A stretch of 64,000 nt of DNA, from NCBI GenBank assembly GCA_013153635.1, contig JAADDZ010000007.1, forward strand, positions 43,425 through 107,424, read 5' to 3'. The notes under the pieces were generated by a model that made no database searches, was not told the origin of the DNA, and saw only the letters and a program-made list of their open reading frames with translations. Numbering within the stretch: the stretch's first letter is position 1; every line of letters begins with the position of its first letter. This DNA is from Aquificota bacterium. GTDB lineage: Bacteria > Aquificota > Aquificia > Aquificales > Hydrogenothermaceae. This document shows positions 35,831 through 42,657 of the stretch, piece after piece. The position numbers were made by a program, and so were the translations under genes.

Positions 35831-36373
35831 ATGAAAACTATAGAAAGAATTGTAGAATGGCTTTTGTGGGAAAGCCGTTTGATTATAATATTTGCTGTAA
35901 TATCTAGCGTGTTAGCCGCTTTTGTCCTTGTAGGAATAGGTACTTATGACATTTTAGTGGTATTAAAACATATACCTCACGCTTTTATAAGTGCTGAATC
36001 ATTTGAGAAATATCATGGAGAGGCTATAACCCATATAATAAGTGCTATTGATGCTTATCTCATATCTACAGTACTACTAATATTTGGACTAGGACTCTAT
36101 GAGCTTTTTATCAGCAGGATAGATTACATAGAACAGGAAACAAAGTCATCAAGGATTCTGGAAGTACATACTTTAGACCAACTAAAAGAAAAATTGGCAA
36201 AGGTTATAATTATGGTTCTTATTGTTACCTTTTTTAAGCATGCGGTTGATTTGAGTTATGGAGATGTTAAAAATCTCTTATTTTTGAGTATTGGAATCGC
36301 TCTTATCGCTGTATCAGTGTATTTTATGGGAAAGGGACATTCTATTGAAGAAAATGAGAAAAATTTACATTAA
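35831..36373 (+). CDS. UPF0114 (YqhA-like) membrane protein
   Basis: A 180-residue protein with about four membrane helices. ESRLIIIFAVISSVLAAF at the start, a His/Glu-containing periplasmic loop, DAYLISTVLLIFGLGLYELF and KVIIMVLIVTFFKHAV match the UPF0114/YqhA family. Its role is unknown. It precedes the copper ATPase by 82 bases and may or may not be cotranscribed. TAGGAGG lies just upstream of the ATG; a TATAAT box at 35791-35796 is a possible -10. Confidence 0.85.
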   Translation: MKTIERIVEWLLWESRLIIIFAVISSVLAAFVLVGIGTYDILVVLKHIPHAFISAESFEKYHGEAITHIISAIDAYLISTVLLIFGLGLYELFISRIDYIEQETKSSRILEVHTLDQLKEKLAKVIIMVLIVTFFKHAVDLSYGDVKNLLFLSIGIALIAVSVYFMGKGHSIEENEKNLH

Positions 36374-36455: not shown

Positions 36456-36803
36456 ATGGAAAATCTCTTAGTTATTGGGTCTTCTATACTACTAATTGGT
36501 GGAATTAGCTGGTTTTTCTTTGGTAAAAAAGAAAAAGGAAAACCAGAAAATCTAAACGAAGAGGATTATCAAACTATCGAGGTAAACATAACAGGTATGC
36601 ACTGTGCCGGCTGTGCCGCAGGAATAGAAGGGACTTTTAAATCTATGGACGGTATAAAGGAAGTCCAAGTGAACTTTGCAACATCAAAAGGAAGATTTGT
36701 TTTTAATCCTGTAGTTATTTCTAAAGAGCAGGTGATTCAAAAAATCAAAGAGTTAGGATATGACGCATCTATAGATTTAGAGAAATTAGAAAAAAAAAGT
36801 TAG
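36456..36803 (+). CDS. Membrane-anchored HMA copper-binding domain (zero-frame product of split copA)
   Basis: A 115-residue product: one membrane helix (about 3-22), a basic/polar linker, then a heavy-metal-associated domain (about 39-107) with GMHCAGC (C50, C53). Positive charges after the helix put the HMA domain in the cytoplasm. The frame stops at TAG 36801-36803, two codons after a run of nine A. In the -1 frame the sequence continues directly into the copper ATPase. The product alone would be a tethered copper chaperone; with slippage it is the N terminus of the full pump. GAGGAAGTAG precedes the ATG. Confidence 0.85.
   Translation: MENLLVIGSSILLIGGISWFFFGKKEKGKPENLNEEDYQTIEVNITGMHCAGCAAGIEGTFKSMDGIKEVQVNFATSKGRFVFNPVVISKEQVIQKIKELGYDASIDLEKLEKKS
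36790..36803 (+). other. Candidate frameshift site: A9 run followed by a zero-frame stop
   Basis: Nine A (36790-36798) include the heptamer A AAA AAA in the correct register for -1 slippage, and TAG follows one codon later. A -1 shift after codon 36795-36797 resumes at AAG 36797-36799 and opens the full ATPase frame. RNA polymerase slippage on the run would do the same. I see no strong downstream pseudoknot. A homopolymer sequencing error or a real inactivating mutation are the alternatives. Confidence 0.6.
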
Positions 36804-38710
36804 AAAAAGAAAAGAGCCTTAGAAAAAAGGTAGTTTTATCTTTTCTTTTAACTTCTGGAGTTTTTTATCTGTCTTTTTTTCCTCTTAGCCCAAATCTAGT
36901 TAATAACATAATACTACTCATATTAGCTTCTTTTGTTCAATTTTTTATAGGGTGGGAGTTTTATAAGTCCTCAATAAACGGGATAAAAAATAAAATAGCT
37001 GACATGAATCTTTTGATAGTTATTGGTACTTCTGTAGCTTACTTTTACTCTGTAAGTGTTATACTTTTTCCTAGCTTATTTCCTGCAAATATGAAAAACT
37101 TATACTTTGACAGCTCTTGTGCGATTATCTCTTTTGTACTTCTTGGAAGATATTTAGAAATCAAGTCCCGCTCAAAAGCAACAGAGTTTATGAAAAAGCT
37201 ATTGTCCCTAAAGCCAGAAAAAGCACGAGTTATAAAAGAAAACACAGAGATTCTAGTACCAGTAGAAAAAATAAAAAAAGGAGACCTTTTAGCAGTAAAA
37301 GCTGGAGAAAAAATACCAACCGATGGAAAAATCATACACGGAGAAGCAGAAATAGATGAGTCGATGCTGACAGGAGAATCTTTTCCTGTTTTTAAAAAAG
37401 TAGGAGATAGAGTTATTGGAGGAACTATCCTCATTGATGGGTACATAAAATTTTACGCAGAGCGAGTAGGAAAAGATACAACCCTATTTCAGATAATAAA
37501 ACTCCTTTTAGAAGCTCAATCTAAAAAACCACCTATAGGTAGACTTGCAGATAAGATAACAGCCTTTTTTGTACCAGCTATACTGATAATAGCTATCTTA
37601 GTATTTGATGCTTGGTTTTTATTAAAAAATGATTTACAGATGGCTATTTTGGCTTGTGTATCTGTGCTAATAATAGCTTGTCCTTGTGCATTAGGTTTAG
37701 CAACTCCTATCGCTATAATAGCTACAATCGGACGAGGTGCAAAAGAAGGCATATTAATTAAAAATCCTGAAGTTATTGAAGTTATCAAAGATGTAGACAT
37801 AGCCATATTTGACAAAACAGGAACACTTACCCACGGAAGATTTTATGTGAAAGATACAGACATAACCGACCCCAAAATATTAGAACTCATAGCAACCGCT
37901 GAAAAATATTCAACTCATCAGATAGCTAGAGCTATATTGGATTATGCAGTATCAAAAGGTATCTACCCAAAGGAACCTGACTATTACAAAAATATTGTAG
38001 GAAAAGGTATATATGCCAAAGTTAAAGATAAAGAAATTTACATAGGTAATAAAGAGCTTTTGAAAGATTTAGGCTTAAACATAGAAGAAACAGAAATGTT
38101 AACTACTGTTTTTGCCGTTATAAACAGAAAAGTAGTTGGGAAGTTCTATCTAGAGGACAAAATAAAAGAAGAGACAAAAGAAGTGATAAGATTCTTCAAG
38201 GAAAAAGGTATAGATATAGTTCTCCTAACTGGAGATAATCAATCTGTAGCTGAAAAAGTATCTAAAGAGTTAGGGATTAACCGATTTAAAGCAAATATCT
38301 CTCCCAAAGGGAAATACGAATATGTAGAAGATTTACAAAGAAAAGGGAAAAAAGTGCTGTTTGTAGGAGACGGTATAAATGATGCTCCTGCAATGGGTAA
38401 AGCAGACGTAGGAATAGCTGTTAATCACGGAACCCAGATAGCTAAAGAGGCAGGAGATATTATCCTCCTAAAGGATTCTCTACTAGCTGTGGTACAAGCT
38501 TTTTCTTTATCCGAAGAAAGTTACAAAACAATCAAACAGAACCTTTTCTGGGCATACATATACAATCTCATATTTATCCCTGTAGCTAGTGGTATATTAT
38601 ATCCTTTCTTCAAGATTTTACTTAAGCCGACTTTCGCTGGAATGGCAATGTCGATGAGTTCAGTTACAGTTGTTTTAAACGCTCTTAGATTGTACAGTAA
38701 AAAACTTTAG
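36797..38710 (+). CDS. copA: Copper-exporting P1B-type ATPase (pump part, -1 frame)
   Basis: Pumps Cu+ out of the cytoplasm. Joined to the preceding frame the protein has about 751 residues. Going from the slip site it has TM1-TM2 (KKVVLSFLLTSGVFYL and later), TGES, the transmembrane CPC (C409, C411 of the joined protein), the phosphorylated Asp453 in DKTGT, an SxHxxA-type loop (KYSTHQIARA), GDGINDAP and C-terminal YN and MSMSS motifs typical of Cu+ pumps. No ATG, GTG or TTG occurs in this frame between the slip site and 37004, yet that stretch encodes conserved TM1-TM2. Translation therefore has to come from the HMA frame. Confidence 0.88.
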   Translation, partial: KLEKEKSLRKKVVLSFLLTSGVFYLSFFPLSPNLVNNIILLILASFVQFFIGWEFYKSSINGIKNKIADMNLLIVIGTSVAYFYSVSVILFPSLFPANMKNLYFDSSCAIISFVLLGRYLEIKSRSKATEFMKKLLSLKPEKARVIKENTEILVPVEKIKKGDLLAVKAGEKIPTDGKIIHGEAEIDESMLTGESFPVFKKVGDRVIGGTILIDGYIKFYAERVGKDTTLFQIIKLLLEAQSKKPPIGRLADKITAFFVPAILIIAILVFDAWFLLKNDLQMAILACVSVLIIACPCALGLATPIAIIATIGRGAKEGILIKNPEVIEVIKDVDIAIFDKTGTLTHGRFYVKDTDITDPKILELIATAEKYSTHQIARAILDYAVSKGIYPKEPDYYKNIVGKGIYAKVKDKEIYIGNKELLKDLGLNIEETEMLTTVFAVINRKVVGKFYLEDKIKEETKEVIRFFKEKGIDIVLLTGDNQSVAEKVSKELGINRFKANISPKGKYEYVEDLQRKGKKVLFVGDGINDAPAMGKADVGIAVNHGTQIAKEAGDIILLKDSLLAVVQAFSLSEESYKTIKQNLFWAYIYNLIFIPVASGILYPFFKILLKPTFAGMAMSMSSVTVVLNALRLYSKKL

Positions 38711-41180: not shown

Positions 41181-42176
41181 TTATTTCTCCGTAATAGTTT
41201 CCTCTACTTTCATTCCAAAATGTCTGCCAGCTTCCTCAACATATCCTAGTATCTCATCTCCTACCTCTAAGTCTACTACAGATACCAAAGAACCATCTGA
41301 TTTTACTAATCTAATAGTTTCCGCATTTTGGAGTACTGCGCTTAATTTTTTATTATTATGTTCTGCTTCTATCAAAATCATAGGTCTTTTTTCTATCTTT
41401 GACCTTCCTACAAATACAGCTCTCCCATTCCCTTCTGTATCGTAAACCATCACCTCTTTGCCTGCTTCCAACTCACACAGATAGACTGTCTTTCCTCCGG
41501 GAACTTTTGTGTACATATGAACAGCTCCAGCGTTCACTCTAAAAGGTCGAGATGCCACATACGGAGATTCTTCTGTTTCTGCATGGACAAAAATCATACC
41601 TGCTGATGAATTTCCAACTAACAGACCCTCTCCTCTTTTTAGTAAGGAGGTGGTATCTACGGCTACCCTATCTCCCATACCTAACAGTTTTATAGCTGTT
41701 ACTTTGGCTTTTACCAATTCTACTTTTTCTGTGTCTTCTTTTATCAATTTTGATACTTTCTTAATCTGATTTATATCGTTTGTTTCTAAAACGACTCCTT
41801 TAACCCCTTTTTCTAGTATACCTACTGCTGTTTTTGCTTCTTGGGGGCTTTTTACAACTGAATATATATTTTCTGACTGGGCTATTAGGTTTTCTAGGGG
41901 AATTATTGTCCAATCTGTGGTTTTAACGATAACCTTCTTCCCTGATTTAGCTAGATTAGCCGCCTTTTCTTCATCTTGTTTATTCTCTATCTGAACTATA
42001 ACAAAATCATCAGATAGGTTTCCTTCTTTATCTACAGTTATAAACTTTACTCTCCCTAATTTTTTTGCTTCTTCTAATTTTTCTTGCGGGATTATTATGT
42101 AATCTGCACCTGATTCTATGGCGGTCGTTATTACCTTTTTGTCATAATCAAGTGCAGACACTATAAACTCTTTCAT
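41181..42176 (-). CDS. 3-dehydroquinate synthase II (archaeal type)
   Basis: Makes 3-dehydroquinate from 2-amino-3,7-dideoxy-D-threo-hept-6-ulosonate in the archaeal version of the early shikimate pathway. The 331 residues carry the family's diagnostic stretches: GDRVAVDTTSLLKRGEGLLVG, SSAGMIFVHAE, ESPYVASRPFRVNAGAVH, VGRSKIEKRPMILIEA. The usual first-step partner (a class I aldolase-like synthase) is not in this window. It is directly followed by the MCE gene and a Crp/Fnr regulator, an odd grouping. Family assignment is firm; NAD-dependent chemistry is known from archaeal members only. Confidence 0.9.
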   Translation of the reverse strand: MKEFIVSALDYDKKVITTAIESGADYIIIPQEKLEEAKKLGRVKFITVDKEGNLSDDFVIVQIENKQDEEKAANLAKSGKKVIVKTTDWTIIPLENLIAQSENIYSVVKSPQEAKTAVGILEKGVKGVVLETNDINQIKKVSKLIKEDTEKVELVKAKVTAIKLLGMGDRVAVDTTSLLKRGEGLLVGNSSAGMIFVHAETEESPYVASRPFRVNAGAVHMYTKVPGGKTVYLCELEAGKEVMVYDTEGNGRAVFVGRSKIEKRPMILIEAEHNNKKLSAVLQNAETIRLVKSDGSLVSVVDLEVGDEILGYVEEAGRHFGMKVEETITEK

Positions 42177-42305
42177 TCCCTACCTCACAGTTTTAGGATA
42201 ATAATATCAAGATTTTAGTAATATAAAATAATACCACATATTAATAACATAAATTAAGAATATTGTTAAGAAATTTTGATTAGATGGATATATTGATTTT
42301 TTTTT

Positions 42306-42657
42306 TGGTGGAGGCGGGGGGAATCGAACCCCCGTCCGAGAACAGCTATCGCACGGGCTTTCTACAGGCTTATCCTGTGATTAGAATTTCGCCTACAGCT
42401 TCCTCACAGGCAAGGCTACTGTAGGCTATCCCCTGAAAAGTTCAAGAAGTACCCTCGGGGAGGCAGGTACTTCTCTAGCCTGTGTGTCTGTCGCCCTTCC
42501 TAAGCCCACAGGCGAGCCTAGGAGGACGTCGCCGCTCTAATTAGGCAGCGAGAGCGAGTTCACGTTCGGGAATTGTTGTTTGTTGGTTTTTTACGGAGTA
42601 ACCTTCTCCGGCCTGCTTACCCGGCTTCACTGTTCCCGTCGAACCCGCATCGCCCCC
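42306..42657 (-). ncRNA. ssrA: tmRNA (transfer-messenger RNA)
   Basis: Rescues stalled ribosomes and tags the peptide. On the minus strand the 5' end GGGGGCG pairs with the 3' CGCCTCC before the encoded ACCA; GGTTCGACGGG and the T-arm GGTTCGATTCCCCC are conserved. The tag frame ends PERELALAA followed by TAA, resembling other Aquificales tags ending ELALAA. The resume codon lies somewhere in the preceding A/C-rich stretch and I cannot fix it. One-piece (not permuted). It is encoded between the yeiH-like gene and the aroB' operon, with no obvious terminator. Confidence 0.97.

Follow-up and report, generated by a model that had tools for sequence, protein, structure and literature searches.

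A conserved frame change predicted at an A9 run in copA of Hydrogenothermaceae, with a tethered copper-binding protein and a copper pump as its two products

We propose that copA of the Hydrogenothermaceae (Aquificota) undergoes a programmed frame change that is conserved in the family and gives the gene a two-product architecture, an inference from comparative sequence data that we hold with high confidence. The slip site, the zero-frame stop, and the shifted frame are all conserved across diverged relatives, and the criterion for recoding is met in this respect. Faithful transcription and translation would yield a 115-aa protein composed of a membrane anchor and a cytoplasmic HMA copper domain. 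Slippage on an invariant run of nine A residues (A9) would give access to the -1 frame and yield a 751-aa anchor-HMA-ATPase fusion, a copper-exporting pump. The gene was analyzed in a 64,000-nucleotide stretch of contig JAADDZ010000007.1 (assembly GCA_013153635.1), called the window hereafter, and in related genomes.

Two reading frames of copA

The features of the locus are listed below, with positions in the window.

35831-36373: gene of a UPF0114 membrane protein, directly 5' of copA (domain search)
36456..36803, plus strand: zero-frame ORF with an ATG start, encoding the short product of 115 aa (orthologs in 31 genomes of the family)
36465..36518, plus strand: N-terminal hydrophobic helix, residues 4 to 21, LLVIGSSILLIGGISWFF (hydropathy; predicted N-out/C-in, with a Lys-rich stretch after it)
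36582..36764, plus strand: HMA domain, residues 43 to 103 (Pfam HMA, AF2, and PDB matches)
within 36603-36614, plus strand: Cys codons of the GMHCAGC copper-site motif of the HMA domain (CxxC invariant among relatives)
36761..36763, plus strand: TGA closing the -1 frame 5' of the run, with no start codon between this TGA and the run
36790..36798, plus strand: A9 slip run; the next base, at 36799, is G (A9G shared by all 29 distinct A9 sequences)
36791-36797, plus strand: heptamer A_AAA_AAA, in register, one codon (AGT) before the TAG
36797..38710, plus strand: ATPase core in the -1 frame, 637 aa, a putative Cu(I)-exporting P1B ATPase (TIGR01511 and solved structures)
36801..36803, plus strand: zero-frame TAG stop, two bases after A9G and one codon after the heptamer
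37679..37687, plus strand: CPC, the transmembrane metal site of P1B ATPases (from the sequence; in nearly all fusions of the relatives)
37811..37825, plus strand: DKTGT phosphorylation motif (from the sequence)

In the short product, a Lys-rich stretch lies between the N-terminal hydrophobic helix and an HMA domain that carries GMHCAGC; the ORF ends in GAA AAA AAA AGT TAG. Pfam HMA matched it with 57.7 bits (E=1.6e-15), the AF2 model had a pLDDT of about 90 across the HMA domain, and the best PDB matches of the modeled domain were domains of ATP7B, CopA, and CopZ. By these three lines of evidence, the protein has the HMA fold with MxCxxC found in CopZ-type chaperones. The hydropathy of the helix was about 1.8 to 2.5 in 30/30 short-product sequences, with 3 to 6 Lys/Arg within the 12 residues that follow it, and AF2 positioned the helix with low confidence only. 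Unlike CopZ-type cytosolic chaperones, the short product is predicted not to be soluble, as the N-terminal helix is present in 30/30 sequences. It also failed to reach the NCBIfam cut-off for CopZ (56.8 bits with the best CopZ model versus 95). Given this score and the predicted insolubility, we propose a CopZ-like function but do not assign the protein to CopZ. Of the 31 gene-bearing genomes, 29 encode no HMA domain other than this one and hence no separate CopZ of HMA fold. We infer that the short product is probably a membrane-tethered CopZ-like copper chaperone, and its role would most naturally be read as the delivery or retention of Cu(I) at the membrane.

The -1 frame is open from the AAG at 36797-36799 through to a TAG at 38708-38710. 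This part scored 599.3 bits with TIGR01511 (copper-translocating P-type ATPase; cut-off, 397), it was also matched by Pfam E1-E2 ATPase, and its nearest solved structures are CopA ATPases. In addition to CPC and DKTGT, it contains GDGIND and, toward the C terminus, MAMSMSS (MxxSS). Reading the zero frame up to the run and then the -1 frame gives the 751-aa fusion, which has the layout of CopA with an extra N-terminal helix. The criteria for CopA (P1B-1), namely, the family HMM, CPC, DKTGT, GDGxND, MxxSS, and an N-terminal HMA, are all met, the last one only via the frame change. Judged by its sequence, the -1 part is the core of a Cu(I)-exporting P1B-1 ATPase, its copper export activity being inferred.

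We then considered how the pump frame can be reached. In the window, the -1 frame has no ATG, GTG, or TTG before 37004, in the ADMNLL region after TM2. In 23/29 A9 loci, a -1-frame TGA overlaps the start of the run by its final A; in the other loci, the -1-frame stop is located 5 to 22 codons before the run. None of the 29 A9 loci has an ATG, GTG, or TTG between this upstream stop and the run, none has a start codon within 12 codons past the run, and nine of them, including the window, lack a start all the way to the DMN motif, which follows the second transmembrane helix. Slippage is the only route to the pump that we could discern in the sequences. The ATPase might instead be started independently after the short ORF, by termination-reinitiation or at a non-standard start codon. 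Translational coupling is conceivable, with the TAG just before the ATPase frame, and in several relatives the first transmembrane segment does include an ATG or TTG. However, the starts that such coupling would use are absent from the positions described above in the window, in the nine loci, and within 12 codons of the run at every A9 locus, and an independent start gives no reason for the invariance of A9G. We consider this explanation highly improbable and ruled it out, as start codons are missing in the right place.

Conservation of the split arrangement

We searched for relatives with the ATPase and, separately, with a short-product alignment. Sequences spanning the slip site came from 30 loci of the genome search and from 18 loci of a scan of GTDB contigs; by its position, one locus (L133) was taken to be G044, the one genome missing from the loci retrieved with the short product. 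The gene was present in 31 of the 41 genomes of the family, covering 8 of 10 genera, and at least one of the genomes without it reflects a contig break (in G002, the ATPase is cut at a contig end). Exactly A9G, in the same register and with the ATPase in the -1 frame, was found in 30 of the 31 gene-bearing genomes (8 genera). This set takes in Sulfurihydrogenibium yellowstonense SS-5 and several genomes of one to five contigs, and the named relatives in the family are Sulfurihydrogenibium, Persephonella, and Hydrogenothermus. The genomes are largely draft MAGs. Lineage independence was handled by counting genera only.

Each of the 29 distinct A9 sequences has a zero-frame stop that ends 5 to 11 nt past the run, within three codons. 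This stop is kept by varied means, as GTTAG, GCTAG, or GATAG or one or two codons later, and the stop-forming codons differ (TTA, CTA, or ATA, followed by G). The functional motifs are conserved in both frames across the relatives. Identity between the ATPases of this set goes down to ∼47 to 50%, which indicates that the split arrangement is old. The only exception is a run of A8, seen at two loci (L060 and L135) that probably represent one assembly, the draft MAG UWMA-0248 (G041), a close relative of which has A9. Either this A8 is an assembly error or it is a case that needs a different slip.

The split could also be explained by a pseudogene or by a sequencing or assembly error in a homopolymer whose true length is A8 or A10. 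A runs are indeed error-prone, and A8 does occur in one draft MAG, but A9 was found in 30 genomes, the motifs are kept in both frames, and a control A9 in lysS was not conserved (see below). Conservation in ∼30 separately sequenced genomes rules out sequencing error and decay, and we give this explanation the least credit of all those considered.

These results bear on an original prediction that was made from the window alone. It had described a zero frame with a membrane helix and an HMA domain (GMHCAGC) ending at the TAG at 36801, a -1 frame encoding a CopA-type ATPase without ATG, GTG, or TTG until 37004, and a heptamer A AAA AAA in register one codon before the stop. All of this agrees with our reading of the sequence and with the Pfam HMA and TIGR01511 matches. 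The proposed comparison with related Hydrogenothermaceae revealed the A run and the early stop in 30 of 31 genomes, and the membrane anchor attributed to the short product gained support from the helix predicted in 30/30 sequences.

As a separate observation, a Persephonella MAG (Faavne_M6_B2, locus L139) has an extra frame break in the ATPase part that ends the fusion after 155 residues; misassembly is the probable cause.

Selection on the run and the cause of the frame change

We looked into whether the run is kept beyond what its codons would explain. The codons GAA AAA AAA were used in 29/29 sequences, against a background in the same ORF of 68% for GAA and 69% for AAA, and the -1-frame Lys codon was AAG in 29/29, versus 25% AAG in the ATPase part. 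With one draw per genus, the chance of this pattern is ∼2e-9, which is only approximate given the non-independence of genera; moreover, the invariant Glu and Lys may partly reflect amino-acid constraint rather than selection on a slip run. The control, an A9 that two Lys codons (K-K) form in lysS of the genome to which the window belongs, was kept in 0/27 relatives with a readable position. Codon use and this control rule out A9 as an ordinary feature held by Lys codons.

Pattern searches on both strands of the whole 1.69-Mb draft genome gave 28 A runs of at least nine. Counts of exact lengths were 2399 for A7, 611 for A8, 26 for A9, and 2 for A10. The A8/A7 ratio of 0.25 predicts ∼156 A9 runs, about six times more than observed. 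Those of the other coding A9 runs of the genome that were translated continue in the same frame, with no second split gene among them. In many bacteria, nine is the length at which selection acting against slippage becomes apparent (PMC1088944, Baranov et al.), and efficient slippage has been reported on runs of nine (PMC5009743). Replication slippage may contribute to the deficit of long runs (PMC1088944).

Two machines could slip on this run. If RNA polymerase is responsible, it would add one A (A10) in a fraction of the transcripts, as in Thermus dnaX, and the length of the run would set the chaperone-to-pump ratio. None of the nine As varies, nor does the G after them, and a ribosome needs only seven As; the homopolymer-length criterion for slippage of the Thermus dnaX type, about nine A with a conserved length, is met. 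No conserved downstream RNA structure was detected (mean z of -0.54 over 30 loci, without a pseudoknot-specific search). The lack of conserved structure, the invariance of A9G, and the sharp drop in runs at nine favor polymerase slippage, and we regard a frame change caused by RNA polymerase as probable, though by no means firm, this transcriptional mechanism being inferred without RNA or protein data. Several points weaken the inference. The cliff at A9 could stem from replication slippage, the in-register A_AAA_AAA directly 5' of the stop is also a classic ribosomal site, one draft MAG has A8, and neither product has been seen, nor has an A10 transcript.

Alternatively, a pair of tRNA-Lys in the P and A sites could slip on A_AAA_AAA by -1 ribosomal frameshifting, so that the fusion would be made from the A9 mRNA and the same two products would result. 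The heptamer is in register with a stop one codon on in the window, and a zero-frame stop lies close 3' of the run in 29/29 A9 sequences. Among the tRNA genes read, which were not all, tRNA-Lys(UUU) was the only tRNA-Lys in the genome itself and in a one-contig relative, and this state is compatible with slippage by the ribosome. E. coli copA and dnaX do use ribosomal frameshifting (PMC5009743). However, there is no conserved downstream stem here, versus a pseudoknot and a nascent chain in E. coli copA (PMC7558416), and inspection by eye revealed no consistent Shine-Dalgarno-like element upstream. The heptamer does not need As 1 and 9 or the following G, and yet these are invariant. Furthermore, if slippage by the ribosome were costly, many A7 and A8 runs should already be affected, and these do not display a comparable drop. 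We therefore keep ribosomal frameshifting as a tentative possibility that we do not expect to be the cause, and ribosomal and polymerase slippage may both act.

The original prediction had called RNA polymerase slippage an equally good mechanism. Polymerase slippage stays plausible, but the two mechanisms are not quite equal, as the comparative evidence leans toward the polymerase without settling the matter. A broader proposal starts from polymerase slippage on A9 as the sole means by which the whole family makes this pump. The unslipped transcript would then encode the membrane-tethered HMA chaperone, and the length of the run, nine since early in the history of the family, would fix the ratio of the two. 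We see this proposal as evenly balanced between true and false.

Relation to known systems and origin of the split

In E. coli, the zero frame of copA encodes the pump, and the chaperone arises by -1 ribosomal frameshifting (PMC5009743, PMC9548414), which relies on a pseudoknot and the nascent chain in addition to a slippery sequence (PMC7558416). For dnaX, arrangements with the reverse logic are known (PMC5009743). As in E. coli, one gene of the Hydrogenothermaceae would yield an HMA copper-binding protein and a full pump, with the frame change just after the HMA domain. In contrast, the zero frame encodes the short protein and the pump is the shifted product, the short product is membrane-anchored, and the A9 site lacks a conserved RNA structure. 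The parallel with E. coli copA that had been drawn originally thus holds for the two proteins from a single gene, but its logic is reversed, since here it is the pump that needs the shift. Hydrogenothermaceae copA probably reaches the outcome of E. coli copA with a mirror-image logic and a different machine.

Thermus thermophilus dnaX is similar in that nine coding-strand As in a gene of a thermophile separate two products (PMC5009743, PMC1088944). However, the full-length product is the unslipped one in Thermus, whereas the long product of Hydrogenothermaceae copA would need a slipped transcript, and slippage was measured in Thermus dnaX but is inferred here. The proposed tethered chaperone has a precedent in CupA of Streptococcus pneumoniae, a membrane-anchored copper chaperone that, like the short product, binds copper and is tethered by an N-terminal helix, and that serves CopA (PMC5646241, PMC7558416). 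CupA has a cupredoxin fold and is a protein in its own right, whereas the Hydrogenothermaceae protein has an HMA domain, with a ferredoxin-like fold, and comes from copA itself. The HMA fold, GMxCxxC, CPC, DKTGT, and MxxSS are shared with CopZ/HMA metallochaperones and with P1B-1 ATPases (CopA and ATP7B), from which the gene differs by the extra helix N-terminal to the HMA domain and by the frame break.

Our literature search found no description of a frame change in copA of Aquificota. If our proposal is true, this gene represents a second, apparently independent and mirror-image way to obtain a copper chaperone and a pump from one gene, in which the main enzyme is the slipped product; this points to convergent selection on the ratio of chaperone to pump. 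Such genes are likely to be labeled as broken or truncated by automatic annotation. The ∼30 natural variants of one slip site of thermophiles would allow ribosomal and polymerase slippage to be separated directly.

We then evaluated when the split arose. In a search of the phylum, the strong matches within Hydrogenothermaceae have the short open frame. In the sister family (f2), the HMA domain is mostly found in open frames of ∼670 to 770 aa, fused to the ATPase (L023, L025, L027, L029, and L030 have both in one frame), and no match to the helix part was obtained. From this contrast with the sister family, we infer that Hydrogenothermaceae apparently acquired the split and the membrane anchor early in their history. 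The HMA matches from other phyla mostly share one frame with the ATPase.

Two loci outside Aquificota, L151 (Rokuibacteriota) and L187 (Balneolaceae), appear to have the HMA and the ATPase in differing frames, each on a single draft MAG contig; these breaks could be errors or other frame changes. The UPF0114 gene precedes copA in 14/30 loci, the window included, some of the others holding too little upstream sequence. Finally, one of the two A10 runs of the genome is located in the window at ∼42297-42306 on the minus strand, outside any long ORF and upstream of a minus-strand ORF at 41181-42176.
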